From a virus, in IMG/VR virus record IMGVR_UViG_3300021959_000411, positions 1 to 23,266 of that record: DNA of 23,266 nt; one strand, written 5' to 3'. Of this stretch, positions 10,548 through 23,253 are shown piece after piece. How positions within the stretch are numbered: the first letter of the stretch is position 1; every line of letters begins with the position of its first letter. Both the position numbers and the translations under genes were made by a program. The notes under the pieces are model-generated. The model saw only the letters and a list, made by a program, of their open reading frames with translations, made no database searches and had not been told where the DNA came from.

Positions 10548-10557
10548 TTAATAACTA

Positions 10558-10611
10558 AATTCAATACCCTATGAATTTAATAGGGTTTTATATATATTTG
10601 TGAATTCAATA
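10558..10611 (+). repeat. AATTYAATA repeat cluster A around a -7 element
   Basis: Three copies of the 9-nt word AATTYAATA lie at 10558-10566, 10574-10582 and 10603-10611, each followed by C or G-rich bases (CCC or GGG). The first two also form an imperfect dyad with AAATTC and GAATTT arms. They flank TATATTTG at 10593-10600. The same word is clustered again near 21.7 kb. A repressor or activator binding site is the simplest reading. Confidence 0.5.
10593..10600 (+). promoter_or_regulatory. -7 element flanked by repeats
   Basis: TATATTTG fits TAnnTTTG exactly. No TTTG or TTG lies 24 nt upstream; that place is occupied by the AATTYAATA repeats. A transcript from here would meet the terminator at 10649-10681 before reaching any gene, giving an RNA of roughly 75 nt or a leader controlled by read-through. 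Confidence 0.4.
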
Positions 10612-10648
10612 GGGTGCGATATTCTGTTGATTTTCTTTGTTTTCAATG

Positions 10649-10690: not shown

Positions 10691-10722
10691 CTTGCACATG
10701 ACATATTTTATCTATATGTTTG
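10691..10722 (+). promoter_or_regulatory. Promoter for the ERF/replication operon
   Basis: CTTG at 10691-10694 and TATGTTTG at 10715-10722 are separated by exactly 20 nt, matching the Bacteroidota -33/-7 arrangement. The -7 element ends only 4 nt before the ATG at 10727, so the predicted start of the RNA is at or very near the start codon, implying a leaderless or almost leaderless message. It lies directly after the terminator that insulates it from the late genes. Confidence 0.6.
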
Positions 10723-10726
10723 TTGC

Positions 10727-11290
10727 ATGGAAAACTTAACAAAGAAGTTGGTGAAAGTTCAAGGGAGTTTGAAAGCACCAAAAAATCAAAGGAACAATTT
10801 CGGTAATTACAATTACAGGAGTTGTGAAGACATCTTAGAAGCAGTTAAACCTTTACTTATAAAAGAAGGGTTGTTATTGACTATCTCTGATTCTATTGCC
10901 CCAGAACCTTTATTTGTTAATGCAGTTGCTGAAATTACTGATGGTAAAGACAAGATTACCGTTAGAGCTCAAGCAGGTATTAACTTAAATAGAAAAGGAA
11001 TGGATGTAGCTCAATGCTATGGAGCATCAAGCAGTTATGCTAGAAAGTACGCTTTAAACGGTTTATTTTTAATTGATGATACCAAAGATGCAGATGCTAC
11101 TAATAATCACTCTAAGGTAGCTAAAAACGCCTCTACAGACGTATTAGAGCCTACTAAGGACTGGCTAGACGAAAAAGGAGACAAGTTTGATAAGGCAAAA
11201 GATGCCATAACAAAAAAAGGTTTTACTATAGCCGATATTAGAAAAAAATATAAAGTAAGTAAGAAAGTAGAAAAATTATTATTAACCTAA
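10727..11290 (+). CDS. ERF-family single-strand annealing protein
   Basis: This 187-residue protein is a phage recombinase of the ERF family, which anneals complementary single strands during recombination-dependent replication and genome circularisation. The family signature is clear: FGNYNYRSCEDILEAVKPLL (about residues 24-43), a glycine-linked hydrophobic stretch, ITVRAQAG, and GASSSYARKYALNGLFLIDD (residues 100-120), followed by DTKDAD. The C-terminal third is Lys-rich and probably a separate small helical domain. The frame stays open back to a TTG at 10637, but that extension would cross the terminator and promoter, so the ATG at 10727 (MENLTKKL) is chosen. The SSB-like gene follows after 14 nt. 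A RecE-like exonuclease encoded at 15.8 kb is the probable partner. Confidence 0.9.
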   Translation: MENLTKKLVKVQGSLKAPKNQRNNFGNYNYRSCEDILEAVKPLLIKEGLLLTISDSIAPEPLFVNAVAEITDGKDKITVRAQAGINLNRKGMDVAQCYGASSSYARKYALNGLFLIDDTKDADATNNHSKVAKNASTDVLEPTKDWLDEKGDKFDKAKDAITKKGFTIADIRKKYKVSKKVEKLLLT

Positions 11291-11615: not shown

Positions 11616-11921
11616 ATGATACAAAGAAAAAACACAAAATACGTTAACATTAATTTAGCATTTATGAATACAAACTTAACAATATCGGAAGCTACAGTAT
11701 TATCTTATATAGATTCATTAGCAATTAAAAAAGGTTATTGTTTTGCCTCAAATGAAAGTATTTGCATGGCATTGAATTTAAATGACAGAACTTTATACAG
11801 AATATTAAAGAACTTAGAAAACAAAGAATACATAACAAGGAAGACAAAAAGCTTAGGAAATGACGGCAAAGAACGTAAGATTTACGTTAATCCAAGTGTC
11901 AGGAGTGTCAGTTCTATGTAA
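11616..11921 (+). CDS. Winged-helix DNA-binding protein, possible replication initiator
   Basis: This 101-residue protein contains a helix-turn-helix of the winged type: SEATVLSYIDSLAIKKGYCF is the first part, followed by ASNESICMALNLNDRTLYRI as the turn and recognition helix, and LKNLENKEYITRKTK as the wing approach. The pattern is that of the HTH_36-like domain found in plasmid and phage replication initiators and in regulators. Its stop codon lies inside the first of three 17-bp dyads, and the primase-helicase gene follows, so it could bind those dyads to start replication or to control its own operon. The start ATG follows an AT-rich leader. I cannot tell initiator from regulator from sequence. 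Confidence 0.7.
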   Translation: MIQRKNTKYVNINLAFMNTNLTISEATVLSYIDSLAIKKGYCFASNESICMALNLNDRTLYRILKNLENKEYITRKTKSLGNDGKERKIYVNPSVRSVSSM

Positions 11922-11979
11922 TACATAGTGTATTATATAAATAAATAATACATAGTGTATTATTATACATAGTGTATTA
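11919..11979. repeat. Three 17-bp dyads, candidate origin or operator
   Basis: TAATACATAGTGTATTA, a perfect dyad with 7-nt arms around TAG, occurs at 11919-11935 and 11946-11962. A third copy with one changed base in the left arm lies at 11963-11979, directly abutting the second. Centre-to-centre distances are 27 and 17 nt. The array is between the winged-helix gene and the primase-helicase gene and covers the whole gap from 11919 to 27 nt before the helicase start. The layout resembles iterons or operators for a dimeric HTH protein. Confidence 0.7.
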
Positions 11980-12005
11980 TAACAATATACATTTAAAATT
12001 GAACT

Positions 12006-13730: not shown

Positions 13731-13999
13731 ATGCTAACCAGAAAAAAATAGTTGCCCAATTAAGAGGGGTAGGATGCTCTGTCCTCCATACTCACCAATT
13801 AGGAAAAGGTGCACCAGATATTATTGTAGGTTATAACTTTAATAATTACTTAATAGAAATTAAAGACGGTTCTAAACCTAAAGCACAACAAAAATTAACA
13901 CCAGATGAAGTTAGATTCCAATCTGAATGGAAAGGAAACTATTATGTTATAAATTCATTTGAACAACTTAGAAACATTGTATTTAAAGATGAGCTCTAA
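13709..13999 (+). CDS. VRR-NUC nuclease
   Basis: This 96-residue protein is a stand-alone VRR-NUC domain, a PD-(D/E)XK nuclease family found in phage and in Holliday junction or structure-specific nucleases. The core is present: an N-terminal helix with QKKIVAQLRGVGC, then KGAPDIIVG (D37), and YLIEIKDG (E50, K52) as the ExK part, followed by LTPDEVRFQSEWKGNYYVI. It starts inside the helicase gene (22-nt overlap), so the two are translationally linked. A likely role is processing branched DNA during recombination-dependent replication or packaging. Length and motifs fit the family well. Confidence 0.88.
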   Translation: MRIRARVDANQKKIVAQLRGVGCSVLHTHQLGKGAPDIIVGYNFNNYLIEIKDGSKPKAQQKLTPDEVRFQSEWKGNYYVINSFEQLRNIVFKDEL

Positions 14000-14558
14000 G
14001 ATACTTGACATATTAGCTAAAAGGCATAATGAATGGCTAAATATGGCTAAAAGTTTTAAATTGAATAATAGTGATGCTAATGAATTAGTTCAAGAGATGT
14101 ATTTAAGAATGTATGATTATACAAAAGATGTAAAAAGAATTATGTATAATGAAACAGAAATTAATACATTTTATATATATATTACATTAAGAAATTTATA
14201 TTATAGCAAGTTTACTAATTATAACAAAAATAAAAAAACAGTGTTATTTTCAGATATAGACACTGAAAAATTTAATTATATTATGAATCAAATAGTTTAT
14301 GATGTTGACCAACATAATGATAATTATAAAAAAAAAGTTAACTTAGAGGCATTGTACAATAAAATAGAAGGCGTAATTGAAGAGTGGTATTGGTACGATA
14401 AAAAGCTTACTAGGTTATATTTAAATACTAATATGAGTATGCGAGACATCAGTAAAGAAACAAAAATAAGTTTAAGTTCAATATTTAATACATTAACAAA
14501 TGCAAAAGAAAAAATTAGAAAGAAAACCAAAGAAGAATACAAAAAGTACAAAAGCTAA
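13989..14558 (+). CDS. Sigma-70-like factor
   Basis: This 189-residue protein resembles a small RNA polymerase sigma factor of the region 2 plus region 4 type. Residues about 23-48 (NSDANELVQEMYLRMYDYTKD) match region 2.1-2.2, and the C-terminal part with LTRLYLNTNMSMRDISKETK and SLSSIFNTLTNAKEKIRKK is a region 4-like HTH. The middle is Lys/Asn-rich and divergent. The reading frame is open from a TTG at 13959, but the ATG at 13989 is preferred, giving MSSKILDILAKRH and an 11-nt overlap with the nuclease gene. Proteins of this kind recur in Bacteroidota phages. Placed at the end of the replication block, it could direct host polymerase to late promoters. The base composition is even more AT-rich than its neighbours. 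Confidence 0.8.
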   Translation: MSSKILDILAKRHNEWLNMAKSFKLNNSDANELVQEMYLRMYDYTKDVKRIMYNETEINTFYIYITLRNLYYSKFTNYNKNKKTVLFSDIDTEKFNYIMNQIVYDVDQHNDNYKKKVNLEALYNKIEGVIEEWYWYDKKLTRLYLNTNMSMRDISKETKISLSSIFNTLTNAKEKIRKKTKEEYKKYKS

Positions 14559-15336: not shown

Positions 15337-15483
15337 ATGCCATTATTAAGACCAAAAAAATACGAAGAGAAAGCAAGTTTTTTAGCAAGGTTTATGAACA
15401 ATGCTAAAATGATATTAGAGTACCCAGACACTAAGCAACGCTATGCAGTTGGATTAGATGTTTGGAAAAAGAATTTCATGTAA
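15337..15483 (+). CDS. 48-residue conserved small phage protein
   Basis: This ORF encodes MPLLRPKKYEEKASFLARFM and continues with NNAKMILEYPDTKQRYAVG and LDVWKKNFM. The pattern MPLxxPK, an F-x-x-R-x-M helix, and E-x-P-D/N-x-x-Q-R-x-A-V is one I know from the start of many phage head-region proteins and from short stand-alone proteins. No enzyme motif is visible. It lies 32 nt after the nuclease gene and just before a predicted promoter at 15486. Its role is unknown. Confidence 0.65.
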   Translation: MPLLRPKKYEEKASFLARFMNNAKMILEYPDTKQRYAVGLDVWKKNFM

Positions 15484-15485
15484 TA

Positions 15486-15516
15486 CTTGTTTATATCAGT
15501 TCTTTTATTAACTTTG
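15486..15516 (+). promoter_or_regulatory. Promoter upstream of the exonuclease/terminase operon
   Basis: CTTG at 15486-15489 and TAACTTTG at 15509-15516 are 19 nt apart and match the Bacteroidota -33/-7 pattern. Predicted transcription would start about 15520, leaving a leader of about 15 nt before the lipoprotein ATG at 15535. It likely drives the lipoprotein, exonuclease and following genes through the terminase. Confidence 0.6.
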
Positions 15517-19165: not shown

Positions 19166-19197
19166 TTTGTCAGTTGGAGAATTAATTACTATATTGA
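19166..19197 (+). promoter_or_regulatory. Promoter P1 with TCAGTTGGA element
   Basis: TTTG (19166-19169) and TATATTGA (19190-19197) are 20 nt apart. The spacer begins with TCAGTTGGA, shared with two other promoters in this region. RNA would start near 19201, about 40 nt before the ATG at 19241. The -7 element deviates from TAnnTTTG at its last two bases. Confidence 0.65.
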
Positions 19198-19240
19198 ACA
19201 CAGTTCATTGAAATATTGTTTAACCCATAAAATTGAAAAC

Positions 19241-19495
19241 ATGGAAAAATTAAAACTAGAGAAAGTTAACTCTAAAAAACAACTAGAATCACAAGGTTAT
19301 TTTAGAATAGATTTAAACAAAGGGATTTGGGATTTTGATGAGGGAAAGTATGTTATAACGAGTACCATACAAAACAAAAGTTCAGTTCTTTATTTTGGTG
19401 GAGATATTTTATCACAAACACCTGTTGAATCAATAGAAGAAGCTTTGTATCTGTACAACACTTATCATTACATTTGTCCAGAACACTACTTATAA
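19241..19495 (+). CDS. 84-residue protein of unknown function, single-gene unit
   Basis: This protein has VNSKKQLESQGYFRIDLNKG, WDFDEGKYVITST and SIEEALYLYNTYHYI. It looks like a small alpha/beta protein without membrane segments. The frame is open from a TTG at 19208, but the ATG at 19241 is preferred as it fits the promoter position. It forms an independent unit: its own promoter lies upstream (19166-19197) and a perfect terminator 7 nt after its stop. Stand-alone control of such a small gene is typical of early host-takeover or regulatory proteins; no function can be read from the sequence. Confidence 0.65.
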   Translation: MEKLKLEKVNSKKQLESQGYFRIDLNKGIWDFDEGKYVITSTIQNKSSVLYFGGDILSQTPVESIEEALYLYNTYHYICPEHYL

Positions 19496-19501
19496 GAAGT
19501 C

Positions 19502-19525
19502 AGGGAGGGTAAAACCTCCCTTTTT
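19502..19525 (+). terminator. Intrinsic terminator
   Basis: AGGGAGG (19502-19508) and CCTCCCT (19515-19521) form a perfect 7-bp stem around a 6-nt loop (GTAAAA), with the T run continuing through 19525. It ends the single-gene unit driven by P1, and is followed 10 nt later by promoter P2. Confidence 0.9.
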
Positions 19526-19535
19526 AAAAAAAAGA

Positions 19536-19567
19536 TTTGGTCAGTTGGAAATTATTAACTAAGTTTG
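19536..19567 (+). promoter_or_regulatory. Promoter P2 with TCAGTTGGA element
   Basis: TTTG (19536-19539) and TAAGTTTG (19560-19567) are 20 nt apart and match the Bacteroidota consensus fully. The spacer holds TCAGTTGGA one base further from the -33 element than in P1. RNA would start near 19571, about 19 nt before the ATG at 19590. It likely drives the chain of small genes to about 21.74 kb. Confidence 0.75.
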
Positions 19568-19589
19568 TGTATAACTAATAAAGAAAACA

Positions 19590-19793
19590 ATGAAAGCACT
19601 ATTTAACAAAACAATTAAAACTGCAATAGTATTAACCTATTGTATAATGACATCATCCTTATTATATCTTGTCTTTACTTTTAATGACAATTTATTTAAC
19701 AACGGAACACTAGGAATACAAACCTTGTTTCTTTGCCTATCCTTAACTATTGTAGTTGGTTTGGTTTTAGACACATATAAAAACAATAAGTAA
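19590..19793 (+). CDS. 67-residue membrane protein with two spans
   Basis: Two hydrophobic stretches, at about residues 12-30 (TAIVLTYCIMTSSLLYLVF) and 42-60 (IQTLFLCLSLTIVVGLVLD), are joined by a polar loop with NDNLFNNG. The ends are basic, which puts both termini in the cytoplasm. It is the first gene after promoter P2, so it should be among the most expressed of this cluster. Function is unknown; early phage membrane proteins often interfere with host envelope functions or other phages. Confidence 0.65.
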   Translation: MKALFNKTIKTAIVLTYCIMTSSLLYLVFTFNDNLFNNGTLGIQTLFLCLSLTIVVGLVLDTYKNNK

Positions 19794-19993
19794 TGATAGT
19801 AAAATTAGCAGTTCATTATGAACAACAAAGAACAAACAAAAAAGACAATAACAATGGTTTGTTGTATGGTATATATCATTATGATATACCTAAAAAAGAT
19901 TTAGATACAGATAATATGTTTAACAATGACATTGTTCATGTTGAATGGTATAAAACAAAATTAGAAAGAAATAAACAACTTAAAAATAAATAA
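19793..19993 (+). CDS. 66-residue protein of unknown function
   Basis: The ATG shares one base with the previous stop (TAATG). The protein has MIVKLAVHYEQQRTNKKD, an Asn/Gly turn, LLYGIYHYDIPKKDLDTD and a basic tail KLERNKQLKNK. It looks like a small soluble alpha/beta protein rich in Tyr, Lys and Asn. No family is recognised. Confidence 0.6.
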   Translation: MIVKLAVHYEQQRTNKKDNNNGLLYGIYHYDIPKKDLDTDNMFNNDIVHVEWYKTKLERNKQLKNK

Positions 19994-19995
19994 TT

Positions 19996-20154
19996 ATGAA
20001 CAAAGTAAACGCATTCGAGAACGAAATATTTGACCATTACAGAAAAAGAGTAAATCAAATAGGAAAGTCAATTAACCTATTAAAAAGTCATGGCTACACA
20101 GTTGTAGATTTAGAAGGCAAGATAATAGAAAACGAAATAGAATTAACTGAATAA
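19996..20154 (+). CDS. 52-residue helical protein
   Basis: The ORF runs from ATG at 19996, two bases after the previous stop, and ends in TAATG with the next gene. It encodes MNKVNAFENEIFDHYRKRVN, QIGKSINLLKSHGYTVVDLE and GKIIENEIELTE. The pattern is a long helix followed by a beta hairpin (GYTVVDLEGKII). The tight junctions on both sides support a real gene. Function is unknown. Confidence 0.65.
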   Translation: MNKVNAFENEIFDHYRKRVNQIGKSINLLKSHGYTVVDLEGKIIENEIELTE

Positions 20155-20351
20155 TGTCAGACATCAGAACTCAAGAACTATTAATTCTAAACATAAAAGA
20201 ATTAGAACAAGAGGTGGTAAGCTTACAATATGATATTAATTGGCAAAATCATTACATGGACTTCTTAGAGGGCAAGAATGACGAACTACATCATAAAGCT
20301 ACTGTACATGCTAACTACATTATGAACTCAACTAAAACCTATGAGATATGA
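20154..20351 (+). CDS. 65-residue coiled-coil protein
   Basis: The sequence LLILNIKELEQEVVSLQYDI followed by NWQNHYMDFLEGKNDELHHK has heptad spacing and probably forms a dimeric coiled coil. It is joined to its neighbours by TAATG upstream and ATGA downstream. No other feature is visible. Confidence 0.62.
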   Translation: MSDIRTQELLILNIKELEQEVVSLQYDINWQNHYMDFLEGKNDELHHKATVHANYIMNSTKTYEI

Positions 20352-20644
20352 AAACAATAATAAAGAAAATCAAAGATTATAACCAAAAAATGATGAGTCA
20401 AGTAAAAAAGACAAGGCATGAACTACAAGATGATGTTAAAATTGAAGTTAGTTCTAATTACAGGATAGAGGGCGACAAGGAAGCAAAGAAAGATGTGTTA
20501 GCAAGTTTAGAAATATATTCTTACACCATCACACCAGAAGAACTAGAGGTGCTTGTAGAAGCTCTTAAATGCGTTTATTCAAATCATCCTGATGGAGAGA
20601 TTAAAATGTCTGTTACACATAATCACGAATACTTAAATTGTTAA
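20348..20644 (+). CDS. 98-residue protein of unknown function
   Basis: A Lys-rich N-terminal helix (MKTIIKKIKDYNQKMMSQVK) is followed by DDVKIEVSSNYRI, a second helical region, SYTITPEELEVLVEALKCVY, and a His/Asn-rich end, VTHNHEYLNC. It is likely soluble. The start overlaps the previous stop by 4 nt. I do not recognise a family. Confidence 0.6.
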   Translation: MKTIIKKIKDYNQKMMSQVKKTRHELQDDVKIEVSSNYRIEGDKEAKKDVLASLEIYSYTITPEELEVLVEALKCVYSNHPDGEIKMSVTHNHEYLNC

Positions 20645-20646
20645 TT

Positions 20647-20784
20647 ATGAGAAAGTGTAATAAATGTGCAACAATAATAGAACAGAAAGCAAAGCAACTA
20701 TTCTGTTATAATTGCAAAGGGTATAAACTGCGTTACGAAACTTATGAGTTTTATTCAATAGCAAATCAATTTAATAATAAATAA
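20647..20784 (+). CDS. 45-residue zinc-ribbon protein
   Basis: The ORF encodes MRKCNKCATIIEQKAKQLFC and then YNCKGYKLRYETYEFYS. C4, C7, C20 and C23 form two CxxC knuckles 12 residues apart, the classic treble or ribbon zinc site. The start lies 2 nt after the previous stop (TAATTATGA) and the end is followed by the same TAATTATGA spacing. Such tiny zinc ribbons in phages often bind nucleic acid or a host protein such as RNA polymerase; which one cannot be told here. Confidence 0.7.
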   Translation: MRKCNKCATIIEQKAKQLFCYNCKGYKLRYETYEFYSIANQFNNK

Positions 20785-20786
20785 TT

Positions 20787-20954
20787 ATGACACAAAATAA
20801 AATAATAAAAGATAATGCAATTAGTATTTTAGATTCAGCATATTCTGGAATACTAAGAATGGTCAGAAGCGATGATGACTATGAAACTATTAACCTAATC
20901 CAACCAATCCTTGACAAGATTGATGAGATACAAAACGAAATAGAAGAATTATGA
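20787..20954 (+). CDS. 55-residue acidic helical protein
   Basis: The ORF encodes MTQNKIIKDNAISILDSAYS, GILRMVRSDDDYETINLIQP and ILDKIDEIQNEIEEL. It is likely two helices joined by the acidic turn SDDDYE. It overlaps the next gene as ATGA. Function is unknown. Confidence 0.62.
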   Translation: MTQNKIIKDNAISILDSAYSGILRMVRSDDDYETINLIQPILDKIDEIQNEIEEL

Positions 20955-21160
20955 AAGTAAACAGAGTATATAAAGTAGTGCGACCTATGAGAAGGTTTGG
21001 TAATTTAATAAAGGACATTATAAATCCAAGAGAATCAAAATATGCTTGGTGTAGATACCCTTTGTATGCCAAAACTAAAAAACAAAAGGAATTGTATATG
21101 GCTACAATAATAGAACACTTAGACAATAGAATAGAAATTAACCCAGAAATAGAAATTTAA
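20951..21160 (+). CDS. 69-residue basic protein
   Basis: The N-terminal half is strongly basic (MKVNRVYKVVRPMRRFGNLI), followed by YAWCRYPLYAKTKKQKEL and an acidic end, EINPEIEI. It could bind nucleic acid. It overlaps the previous gene by 4 nt and lies 4 nt before the next ATG. No family is recognised. Confidence 0.6.
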   Translation: MKVNRVYKVVRPMRRFGNLIKDIINPRESKYAWCRYPLYAKTKKQKELYMATIIEHLDNRIEINPEIEI

Positions 21161-21164
21161 TAAT

Positions 21165-21356
21165 ATGACACACCTTGAGGATTTAAACAGAATTGAAATC
21201 AGACACCTTAGAGATACAGTAAATATCTTTGAAAGTGAGATTAGAAAACTAAGAAAACTACTTAAAACAATTAAGGAAGAGAACGAAACACTTAGAGCAA
21301 AAAATGAATTGCATAGGCAACAATTAGAATCAGAATATAGAAAAAGTAAAGTTTAA
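21165..21356 (+). CDS. 63-residue leucine-zipper-like protein
   Basis: Almost the whole protein is a charged coiled coil: LNRIEIRHLRDTVNIFESEI, RKLRKLLKTIKEENETLRAK and NELHRQQLE, with Leu or Ile at heptad positions. It probably dimerises. It is followed after 3 nt by the next gene. Confidence 0.65.
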   Translation: MTHLEDLNRIEIRHLRDTVNIFESEIRKLRKLLKTIKEENETLRAKNELHRQQLESEYRKSKV

Positions 21357-21359
21357 AAG

Positions 21360-21605
21360 ATGCAACATAAATTTATTAGGGAGTTGGTAGAGTTTAAATT
21401 TAAAGCTATTAGAACTGCCACAAAGAAAGCTAAACTATTTATCGAGTATGATAATTCAATGGTATGGATTCCAAACTATATGATATTTAGATTTAGTTGG
21501 GATAAAGAAAATAATATAGTTAGGGTATTATGTCCTAAAAAACATTTGGTTAGTATTATAAACCAACCCAGAGAAAAGCGTAAATATAGAGAACGTAAAT
21601 CATGA
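21360..21605 (+). CDS. 81-residue basic protein of unknown function
   Basis: The protein has FIRELVEFKFKAIRTATKKA, then KLFIEYDNSMVWIPNYMIFR, and a basic tail, QPREKRKYRERKS. The middle part looks like a beta meander (VWIPNYMIFRFSWDKENNIV). The stop overlaps the next gene as ATGA. It may bind RNA or DNA; no family is recognised. Confidence 0.62.
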   Translation: MQHKFIRELVEFKFKAIRTATKKAKLFIEYDNSMVWIPNYMIFRFSWDKENNIVRVLCPKKHLVSIINQPREKRKYRERKS

Positions 21606-21742
21606 AGCAACTAACCTTTGAGATAAAAGAAGTAGGACAAGAAGTTTATACTAAGCAATTCAATACGGATAGGTCAATTCAATACACCATTGAGCAATAC
21701 TCAAGGCATCGCCAAATTCAATACATGAATTTAATAGAGTAG
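21602..21742 (+). CDS. 46-residue protein with embedded AATTCAATAC repeats
   Basis: The ORF starts in an ATGA overlap and encodes MKQLTFEIKEVGQEVYTKQF, NTDRSIQYTIEQYSRHRQIQ and YMNLIE. The beta strand followed by KQFNTDR and a helix is a pattern I have seen in small Flavobacterium proteins. Three of the four AATTCAATAC repeats of cluster B lie inside this coding sequence, read in two different frames (QFNT versus IQY), so they are not simply a protein repeat. This suggests that the DNA word itself is under selection here. It is the last gene before the 380-nt gap. Confidence 0.6.
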   Translation: MKQLTFEIKEVGQEVYTKQFNTDRSIQYTIEQYSRHRQIQYMNLIE

Positions 21743-21770
21743 ATTATAAATTCAATACATAAATTTAATA
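21657..21770. repeat. AATTYAATA repeat cluster B
   Basis: AATTCAATAC occurs at 21657-21666, 21676-21685, 21715-21724 and 21749-21758. The last two are each followed after 3 nt by AATTTAATA (21728-21736, 21762-21770), so that two units of about 22 nt repeat with a 34-nt period. The same word forms cluster A at 10558-10611. The array spans the end of a small gene and the start of the gene-free region. Confidence 0.55.
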
Positions 21771-21893
21771 TACCCCACCCATTCAAAAAATATCTGTTTT
21801 CTGTTCGGCTCTTCTTGGGCAATTTGCAAAGCTAAAAACAAATAAAGCATAAAAGCAAAATAATATTCTTATTTAGAATTAATATAAATTAAC

Positions 21894-22025
21894 ATGAATA
21901 ATCAACTTTGTTTGTTAATTGTTTTGTCAGTTGGAATATTTATATATATATTTGTAGTGTTGTTAAAGTCAAAGCTTCAATATATTCAAGCTGGTAGAGT
22001 GAGCAAAGGTCAAAGCGAAACCTAA
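21894..22025 (+). CDS. Possible 43-residue membrane protein overlapping P3
   Basis: The ORF encodes MNNQLCLLIVLSVGIFIYIF and VVLLKSKLQYIQAGRVSKGQ, then SET. It would be a single membrane helix followed by a basic tail, a credible small membrane protein, and its ATG has an A/T-rich leader like other genes here. However, the promoter P3 (21923-21954) lies inside it and shares TCAGTTGGA with two intergenic promoters, and an AT-rich promoter read in frame naturally yields hydrophobic residues. Either or both could be real. Confidence 0.3.
   Translation: MNNQLCLLIVLSVGIFIYIFVVLLKSKLQYIQAGRVSKGQSET
21923..21954 (+). promoter_or_regulatory. Promoter P3 with TCAGTTGGA element
   Basis: TTTG (21923-21926) and TATATTTG (21947-21954) are 20 nt apart, both exact consensus matches, and TCAGTTGGA fills the first half of the spacer exactly as in P1. 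RNA would start near 21958, giving a leader of about 165 nt before the ATG at 22124. It likely drives the second block of small genes to the end of the window. Confidence 0.72.
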
Positions 22026-22110
22026 CGAGGCGACAAAAGAGTTATCTTAGAATAGCAAAAAGGTGTAAAAAAGTGGCACCTACTCATAGACAAATCAAAA
22101 CACTTATAAT
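21958..22110 (+). ncRNA. Possible structured leader or small RNA
   Basis: After P3 the sequence contains three short inverted repeats: AGCTT/AAGCT (21973-21977, 21988-21992), AGGT/ACCT (22007-22010, 22020-22023) and AGGTG/CACCT (22061-22065, 22077-22081). No T-run terminator follows, so it may be a 5' leader of the gene at 22124. It matches no riboswitch or tRNA that I recognise. The extent is approximate. Confidence 0.3.
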
Positions 22111-22123
22111 TTAAATTAATACT

Positions 22124-22456
22124 ATGAAAACATTAAAATTAAATCTTAATCAAGAAGTTACAAATCTTTTTTTAAGTGGTGGAATTCTTGTTAAATCTTG
22201 CATTTCATCAGATGAAAAATTCTTTGTTGGTGTTGTTAAAATGCCAAAAGATAATTTAGCAAATGATAATATTTATAAAACAAACAGAAAGTTTGAGTTT
22301 GTTATGATTTCAAATTATATTTATGATTCTGAAATTGTTATTACTTCTTACCATAATCAAAGCATGAGAAAGGTAAAAACCTTATGTATTGAACAATACG
22401 AGGAAGATATGCAAGCATATAGAAGAAAAATAAAATCTATTGAATATATTTATTAA
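22124..22456 (+). CDS. 110-residue protein of unknown function
   Basis: The sequence has LKLNLNQEVTNLFLSGGILV, SSDEKFFVGVVKMPKDN, FEFVMISNYIYDSEIVITSY and EDMQAYRRKIKSIEYIY. It looks like a beta-rich domain followed by a C-terminal helix. It is the first clear gene after P3. No family is recognised. The next gene follows after 2 nt. Confidence 0.65.
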   Translation: MKTLKLNLNQEVTNLFLSGGILVKSCISSDEKFFVGVVKMPKDNLANDNIYKTNRKFEFVMISNYIYDSEIVITSYHNQSMRKVKTLCIEQYEEDMQAYRRKIKSIEYIY

Positions 22457-22458
22457 AT

Positions 22459-22560
22459 ATGAAAAACTTATTTAAAATATTATCCGAAATTTTCGCATTT
22501 GGTTTGTTCGCCTTTGTTATGGGCGTTTGCCTTATCTTATTAATTAACTTATTTATATAA
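22459..22560 (+). CDS. 33-residue membrane peptide
   Basis: The ORF encodes MKNLFKILSEIFAFGLFAFV and MGVCLILLINLFI. One membrane helix covers about residues 9-32, after a basic N terminus. It starts 2 nt after the previous stop and ends 2 nt before the next ATG, which supports a real gene. Function is unknown; a toxin-like or membrane-perturbing peptide cannot be excluded. Confidence 0.55.
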   Translation: MKNLFKILSEIFAFGLFAFVMGVCLILLINLFI

Positions 22561-22562
22561 CT

Positions 22563-22736
22563 ATGAAATATATTAAAATTCCTTTAGCATATCTTCCAAC
22601 TGAAAACAATGAATATGAATATGATTATGATTATATGAGAATCATGTTTGAAAAACAATTAGAATTATTATTTCATTTACAAAGTGGAACTAAACCAGAA
22701 TCAAAAAACCATATTAATTATAATTTAACAAAATGA
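22563..22736 (+). CDS. 57-residue Tyr-rich protein
   Basis: The ORF encodes MKYIKIPLAYLPTENNEYEY, DYDYMRIMFEKQLELLFHLQ and SGTKPESKNHINYNLTK. An acidic Tyr/Asp/Glu run at residues 14-24 leads into a helix. It overlaps the next gene as ATGA. No family is recognised. Confidence 0.6.
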   Translation: MKYIKIPLAYLPTENNEYEYDYDYMRIMFEKQLELLFHLQSGTKPESKNHINYNLTK

Positions 22737-22918
22737 AAACAAAAAGAATCAAAGAACTAAACAACCTTTATGCAGTGCCAACAGGCAAAATGTACAAAGT
22801 AAAAAGTAACACGCTAAAAACTATCTTAAAACGTGTTTTATTGCACCCTTTCACGGTAGCGTTAACCGTTTATTCATTAATAATATTATCAATTATTATT
22901 TTAACCATAAAAATCTAA
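22733..22918 (+). CDS. 61-residue single-span membrane protein
   Basis: A basic N-terminal half (MKTKRIKELNNLYAVPTGKM, TLKTILKRVLLHPF) is followed by one membrane helix, about residues 41-59 (TVALTVYSLIILSIIILTI), and a very short end. The topology is N terminus inside. It overlaps its upstream neighbour by 4 nt. Function is unknown. Confidence 0.62.
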   Translation: MKTKRIKELNNLYAVPTGKMYKVKSNTLKTILKRVLLHPFTVALTVYSLIILSIIILTIKI

Positions 22919-22920
22919 AT

Positions 22921-23253
22921 ATGAAAACAAAAACTATTGACGTAAACGCAAAAGAATGGTATGATAAAATTAATGGCAATTCTTATTTTTGTGGCACAAT
23001 AACCCTTAATTATTTAATGGATAATGAGGAAACTTTTTTAATGCCGTTTCAATATGGTTACGGCTCTTCCTATGAATGTGAAGCTAAAGCAATATTAACA
23101 GAGTTTAATAAAATAAGTGGCAATTGGTTTCAAGGTTTATATACTTATTGTAAAGACAATAATATTATTTACAGGTCAAACATAAAAAGAAACTCATTAA
23201 AAAGAGAATTAAAACAAATTGAAACTGATTATAATAATAACCTAAATAAATAA
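22921..23253 (+). CDS. 110-residue conserved-looking phage protein
   Basis: The protein has EWYDKINGNSYFCGTITLNY, then EETFLMPFQYGYGSSYECEA and KAILTEFNKI, with a Lys/Asn-rich C terminus. The pattern NGNSYF followed by a YGYGSSYE segment and a helix is one I have met in Bacteroidota phage and plasmid proteins without a known function. It starts 2 nt after the previous stop. It is probably soluble and alpha/beta. Confidence 0.65.
   Translation: MKTKTIDVNAKEWYDKINGNSYFCGTITLNYLMDNEETFLMPFQYGYGSSYECEAKAILTEFNKISGNWFQGLYTYCKDNNIIYRSNIKRNSLKRELKQIETDYNNNLNK

Follow-up and report, generated by a model that had tools for sequence, protein, structure and literature searches.

What reads the nine-base word TCAGTTGGA that lies inside the spacers of three promoter-like sites in the IMG/VR virus record IMGVR_UViG_3300021959_000411? 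The whole record of 23,266 bases, hereafter the window, is an incomplete genome fragment with genes for a terminase, a portal, a tail fibre, a primase/helicase, an Erf annealing protein and an exonuclease. The original prediction, made from the window alone, proposed a binding site for a phage or host regulator, or an extended promoter element read by a modified RNA polymerase. Phage takeover of the TTTG/TAnnTTTG transcription machinery in Bacteroidota seems to be little studied, and a limited literature search turned up no account of phage-specific promoter elements in Bacteroidota phages. Sequence comparisons indicate that the word recurs at early, recombination and late promoters across a virus family. 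Its relaxed form, KCANNTG[GC]A, is predicted, at about even chances, to be the binding site of a sequence-specific regulator that is encoded by the phage, is distinct from its sigma factor and serves a lineage-wide regulon.

Three promoter-like sites with a shared spacer word

All three sites consist of a TTTG, a 20-nucleotide (nt) spacer and a −7 box (Table 1), the geometry that was originally described. They carry the boxes of sigma-ABfr promoters (TTTG at −33 and TAnnTTTG at −7; PMC7366714), with the spacer of about 19-21 nt that is typical of the Bacteroidota primary sigma factor. Sites 2 and 3 have a −7 box without mismatches, and the looser wording of the original prediction covers site 1, where TATATTGA has two mismatches. 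The word begins directly after the −33 TTTG at sites 1 and 3 and after one intervening G at site 2, again as first noticed. Site 1 lies in a gap of 126 nt and site 2 in a gap of 94 nt, while site 3 occupies one of 381 nt, ahead of the gene block that begins at 22124, in agreement with the earlier placement of two sites between genes and one before a new block. In particular, site 1 precedes an open reading frame (ORF) at 19241-19495 and has an equivalent in five relatives (G003, G004, G006, G008 and G014); site 2 is 22 nt ahead of the ATG of a small-gene block (19590-21742), with an orthologous site in many loci selected by their terminase; and the counterparts of site 3 are about 50 nt ahead of an ATG. 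Judged by these sequence features, the three sites are very probably promoters.

It is extremely improbable that the word is a product of chance or of coding constraint. The DNA is AT-rich, a 43-amino-acid (aa) ORF (21894-22025) overlaps site 3, and a fourth copy of TCAGTTGGA lies within a gene on the minus strand (22595-22603), all of which would suit such an origin. However, the plus strand contains three copies where a trinucleotide model expects 0.10, all three are in promoter geometry, and they are kept at orthologous places. The spacer of site 3 is 19 or 20 nt long depending on the relative, and the 43-aa ORF has no match among the relatives searched; site 3 is therefore not conserved as coding sequence, and a coding explanation for it was rejected.

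Table 1. Coordinates of promoter-like sites and associated features in the window.
Feature	Coordinates	Strand	Details
Site 1, promoter-like	19166..19197	+	TTTGTCAGTTGGAGAATTAATTACTATATTGA; TTTG 19166-19169; TCAGTTGGA 19170-19178; degenerate −7 box TATATTGA 19190-19197
Site 2, promoter-like	19536..19567	+	TTTGGTCAGTTGGAAATTATTAACTAAGTTTG; TTTG 19536-19539; word 19541-19549; −7 box TAAGTTTG 19560-19567
Site 3, promoter-like	21923..21954	+	TTTGTCAGTTGGAATATTTATATATATATTTG; TTTG 21923-21926; word 21927-21935; −7 box TATATTTG 21947-21954
erf promoter	10691..10722	+	(C)TTG at −33; reversed word TTGCACATGACA 10692-10703 (reverse strand TGTCATGTGCAA); −7 box TATGTTTG 10715-10722
exo promoter, doubtful member	15486..15516	+	CTTG; weak word TCAGTTC 15496-15502, second position; −7 box TAACTTTG
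boxA-like element in site-1 leader	19203..19215	+	GTTCATTGAAATA; conserved with the promoter; same in G003, G004, G006, G008, G014
ECF-like sigma factor, candidate reader of the word	13989..14558	+	189 aa; profile matches, fold, frozen region-4 helix

Recurrence of the word across a phage lineage

The window was compared with fifteen longer virus records and with Nonlabens phage P12024L, the nearest named phage, which has 54% identity in the terminase and 42% in the portal, an ERF gene and a gene annotated with Sigma-70 region 2. By sequence, the word is a trait of a large lineage of uncultured Bacteroidota-type phages that is distantly related to P12024L. An exact scan of IMG/VR, many of whose contigs are near-duplicates, found the full pattern in 97 stretches versus 12 when the word was reversed between the same boxes, and the majority of these 97 come from a single phage lineage with terminases of ~69-100% identity. 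When 69 loci of relatives were chosen by terminase alone, irrespective of the word, the exact word was present within 900 nt after the terminase in 51 of them, at orthologous places; the relaxed KCA[GT]NTG[GC]A behind TTG/TATG was present within the same distance in 65, compared to none for the reversed-word control. The original prediction had made its case depend on the word being found upstream of orthologous genes in relatives, and those 65 loci bear it out. Across the lineage, 33 of 46 promoter-like sites carry the word; the gene cassettes downstream of these promoters differ among relatives, and the promoters stay. Further, the intergenic regions contain 48 copies of TCANNTG[GC]A versus a median of 3 for permutations of its letters, and 24 of these copies have no preceding TTTG, where permuted patterns have a median of 3.

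The variants of the word within the lineage (TCATGTGGA, TCATATGGA, TCAGGTGGA, TCAGTTGCA, TCAGTTGTA and GCAGTTGGA) show that its two central bases vary and that TCA and TG are mostly kept. A perfect dyad, CANNTG, was considered as a universal core and discarded, as it holds in near clades and fails in distant ones. The variant GCAGTTGGA also occurs, by coding, inside a 48-aa ORF (15337-15483) that is conserved lineage-wide (54-96%) and has no family match.

The word is found at two positions and in two orientations. In the class I setting, TTTG is followed by 0-1 nt, the word, 9-11 nt and TAnnTTTG; in a second setting, the word is about six bases further in (TTG-N6-word-N5-TAnnATTG). At the erf promoter, distant clades have a forward TTTGTCAGTTGGA just before erf, and three nearer clades have the reversed TTGCANNTGACA at the same place; the window, where the erf ATG is at 10727, is of the reversed kind. 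The exo promoter may be a member of the second setting, with a poorly kept word, as many relatives read TCGGTTC. Moreover, the late tail-operon promoter of the relatives, which like most of their sites falls outside the window, carries the word in 12 of 12 comparable relatives without TTTG or TAnnTTTG, usually together with an inverted partner (CTGACATATATTCAG and variants; CTGACATATATTCAGTTGGAATAAGTAAAGTAC and ATGCCACTGAGTCATTTGAGTTAGTGAGATAC). The copies at erf and, in relatives, at the late operon take the word beyond the early small-gene region, to which it had first been assigned. A reversed word is conserved upstream of a lineage-wide 81-aa gene, with a conserved TTACTCCACTCTCTCTACA block beside it; the 81-aa protein (G014 13996-14241 and homologs) has a weak match to PHROG 5945, a family annotated as of unknown function, and the late promoter lies downstream of its gene.

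Candidate readers of the word

The simplest reader would be the host polymerase itself: the word would be an extended −33 element, read directly with the primary sigma factor, that makes unusually strong phage promoters. Among the matches listed for unrelated Bacteroidota-type viruses, TTTG-[GT]CAGTT with a −7 box was in promoter context in 39 of 103 cases versus 3 of 100 for a scrambled word, a comparison of promoter-context fractions only, in which some of the 39 are lineage members. Unrelated viruses also provide promoter-like TTTGGCAGTT..TAnnTTTG just before an ATG (L427, L430, L448, L463, L493, L499, L513 and L521). However, the word is absent from all 13 promoter-like sites, a small control, of nine named phages outside the lineage, P12024L included, and is present in only 2 of 28 further promoter-like sites of unrelated contigs, whose neighbouring promoters show just a looser GYAGTT. 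The enriched virus matches had suggested an extended −33 element common to Bacteroidota as a whole, and these promoters, unselected for the word, speak against it; by its sequence distribution, the nine-base word in its fixed form belongs to the lineage. Nor does direct reading by the host polymerase account for the NN gap, the reversed copies, the second position or the late promoter that has neither host box, and it is considered unlikely. An extended element should hold one orientation and one position, so that the reversed copy, the second position and the 24 intergenic copies without TTTG leave the plain form of the originally proposed polymerase element unsupported; the modified polymerase of that proposal keeps a possible counterpart in a sigma factor of the phage, discussed below.

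The original prediction also allowed for a host regulator, whose site the phage would have borrowed. Across 149 Flavobacteriaceae genomes, KCAGTT with both boxes has 22 matches versus 10 for a scrambled word, counts that are small and not decisive, and the 54 exact genome matches, none of them in a marine flavobacterium, come mostly from gut or rumen Bacteroidales and from other phyla. A host transcription factor as the reader is accordingly very unlikely. The other half of the proposal fares better, as the word behaves like a regulator-binding site.

A sequence-specific regulator is favoured over an extended −33 element because of the second position, the reversed erf copy and the late promoter without host boxes. 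One word at several promoters, in any orientation or position, is the arrangement of dispersed operators, and it is seen here in the class I sites, the second position, the reversed erf copy and the late promoter. At the early and recombination promoters, the word would lie within the footprint of the host RNA polymerase, mostly directly after the −33 TTTG; a protein bound there would therefore either block the polymerase or make direct contact with it. Initiation at the late tail-operon promoter, where both host boxes are missing, would depend on the same protein. The outcome would be a temporal switch, in which one phage protein lowers or re-programs the host-type early promoters and activates the late genes. 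We infer this mechanism by its likeness to T4 MotA or phi29 p4; that a protein binds the word, that it originates from the phage, which protein it is and whether it represses or activates are likewise inferred.

Several observations weigh against such a regulator. No regulator gene is recognised as the reader of the word. The TG half of the word decays in distant clades (CAGTTAGA and CAGTTCTA), which weakens its reading as a dyad. Because the relatives share a common ancestry, some of the conservation reflects descent. High intergenic counts (57 and 22) also came from two of the 60 permuted patterns, perhaps caused by other repeats such as the TACATAGTGTA arrays. Finally, the looser TTTG-GYAGTT in unrelated Bacteroidota-type viruses may reflect a mild polymerase preference for bases after the −33 box.

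The leading named candidate for the reader, as yet unproven, is a sigma-like protein of the extracytoplasmic function (ECF) type. The sequence evidence for its identity is weak but one-sided: it matches NCBIfam sigma70-ECF (2.3e-5), two Bacteroidota sigma families (near 1e-5) and a PHROG sigma factor (1.5e-4, and 3e-6 for the best member of its family), with all NCBIfam and Pfam scores under the curated cut-offs (24.1 versus 42.9 bits for sigma70-ECF; 14 versus 24 for Pfam Sigma70_r2). A sequence search of the PDB with this protein returned no sigma factor, and only fold comparison did so. Its AlphaFold2 model has a mean predicted local distance difference test (pLDDT) of 81.6 and a predicted template modelling score (pTM) of 0.43; the best Foldseek matches are ECF sigma factors (best E 2.9e-3). 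In the model, region 4 aligns to region 4 of E. coli sigmaE on −35 DNA (2h27; Z 9.5, root-mean-square deviation (rmsd) 2.6, 71 residues) and region 2 to SigR (1h3l; Z 8.5, rmsd 2.8, 71 residues), so that both sigma regions and the ECF fold appear to be present. Whereas identity over the whole protein drops to ~45%, the homologs examined keep the region-4 helix TKISLSSIFNTL unchanged or almost unchanged, and the sigma-like protein of P12024L has a different region 4. The ECF fold, the frozen helix and the absence of the word from P12024L, with its other region 4, make this protein the best named candidate.

It is possible, though doubtful, that the word serves as the −35 element of this sigma factor. 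On that view, each class I promoter would be open to two sigma factors, with the host sigma factor on TTTG and TAnnTTTG and the phage sigma factor on TCANNTGGA and a TA ~19 nt downstream, and the late promoter would be served by the phage sigma factor only. The ECF fold in both domains, the near-invariance of region 4, the case of P12024L and a word-to-TA spacing of 18-20 in late and class I promoters alike are consistent with this arrangement. On the other hand, the reverse strand offers the reversed erf copies no consistent −10, the TA of the second geometry is only 14 nt away, the −10-like sequences are unlike (TAnnTTTG in early and GATAC/GTAC in late promoters), and P12024L is a single distant case. 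A bolder and decidedly doubtful extension would have the whole phage programme run by its own ECF-like sigma factor, whose region 4 reads TCANNTGGA, with early promoters as host/phage overlays in the same 32 base pairs (bp) and late promoters carrying the phage word only; if true, transcription would be handed over from the host to the phage sigma factor without any change of promoters. A separate DNA-binding regulator accounts better than a sigma factor for the freedom of orientation and position.

Another DNA-binding protein, the HTH_36 protein (11616-11921), was considered as the reader and is less likely; it diverges to ~50% and adjoins TACATAGTGTA repeats that also diverge. Between this replication-initiator-like gene and the primase gene, repeats around TACATAGTGTATTATA occupy 11922-12005, and they are also present upstream of the late tail operon of relatives; the array is possibly an origin or the target of a second regulator.

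The surroundings of the three sites contain additional elements. The site-1 leader includes a sequence that we take to resemble the boxA antitermination signal (Table 1), and GTTCATTGAAATA or GTTCTTTGACATA is also present in the leaders of G004 8640 and G006 958, which suggests antitermination of early transcripts after some of the promoters. The long leader of site 3 has no predicted RNA structure (folding z of 0.48), and Rfam and tRNA searches of the window found nothing. On the minus strand, TTTGCTTTTATGCTTTATTTGTTTTTAGCTTTG (21827-21859), a reverse-strand promoter-like or other element that closely precedes site 3, is kept in many relatives. Repeated AAATTCAATAC..GAATTTAATAGGG elements are located at 10548-10636 and 21714-21770, and a similar GAATTCAATACC lies upstream of the 81-aa gene of relatives. 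Within 19241-23253, the small early genes are exchanged freely among relatives, and their promoters are retained.

Comparison with known systems

The promoter-like sites have the same boxes as Bacteroidota primary-sigma promoters, and differ by a 9-bp spacer word that is foreign to that consensus. P12024L has a related terminase, portal, ERF and sigma-like gene, but, unlike the lineage, it does not carry the word in promoter position. The lineage's sigma-like protein shares the region 2 and region 4 folds of ECF sigma factors, and differs from them in being highly diverged, with scores below the cut-offs. The lineage combines a box at early, recombination and late promoters with an ECF-like sigma factor whose putative DNA-reading helix is frozen, and, with a site on the DNA and a candidate protein both named, an early-to-late switch can be tested directly.

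At T4 middle promoters, the MotA box has its centre at −30, and 12 ± 1 bp separate it from the −10 box of the host (PMC2988021). The class I sites have a comparable spacing, with 9-11 bp between the end of the word and the −7 box, and they likewise place a phage-specific box in the spacer/−35 region while keeping the downstream host box. In contrast to the T4 promoters, where the MotA box replaces the −35, the host −33 TTTG is retained, so that these sites are not T4-type middle promoters, and the word is also used in reverse and at a late promoter that has neither host box. No match to MotA or AsiA was found among the proteins scanned against PHROGs and Pfam, which were part of the ORFs of an incomplete window.

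Further points of comparison are the operators of P1 C1 and mycobacteriophage L5 gp71, and the early/late switch of phi29 p4. Unlike in those systems, no repressor gene is recognised here, and binding to the word is a prediction from sequence; no integrase was seen in the parts examined. What the lineage has in common with them is a short, not fully symmetric word that can face either way and is repeated at numerous promoters, both early and late.

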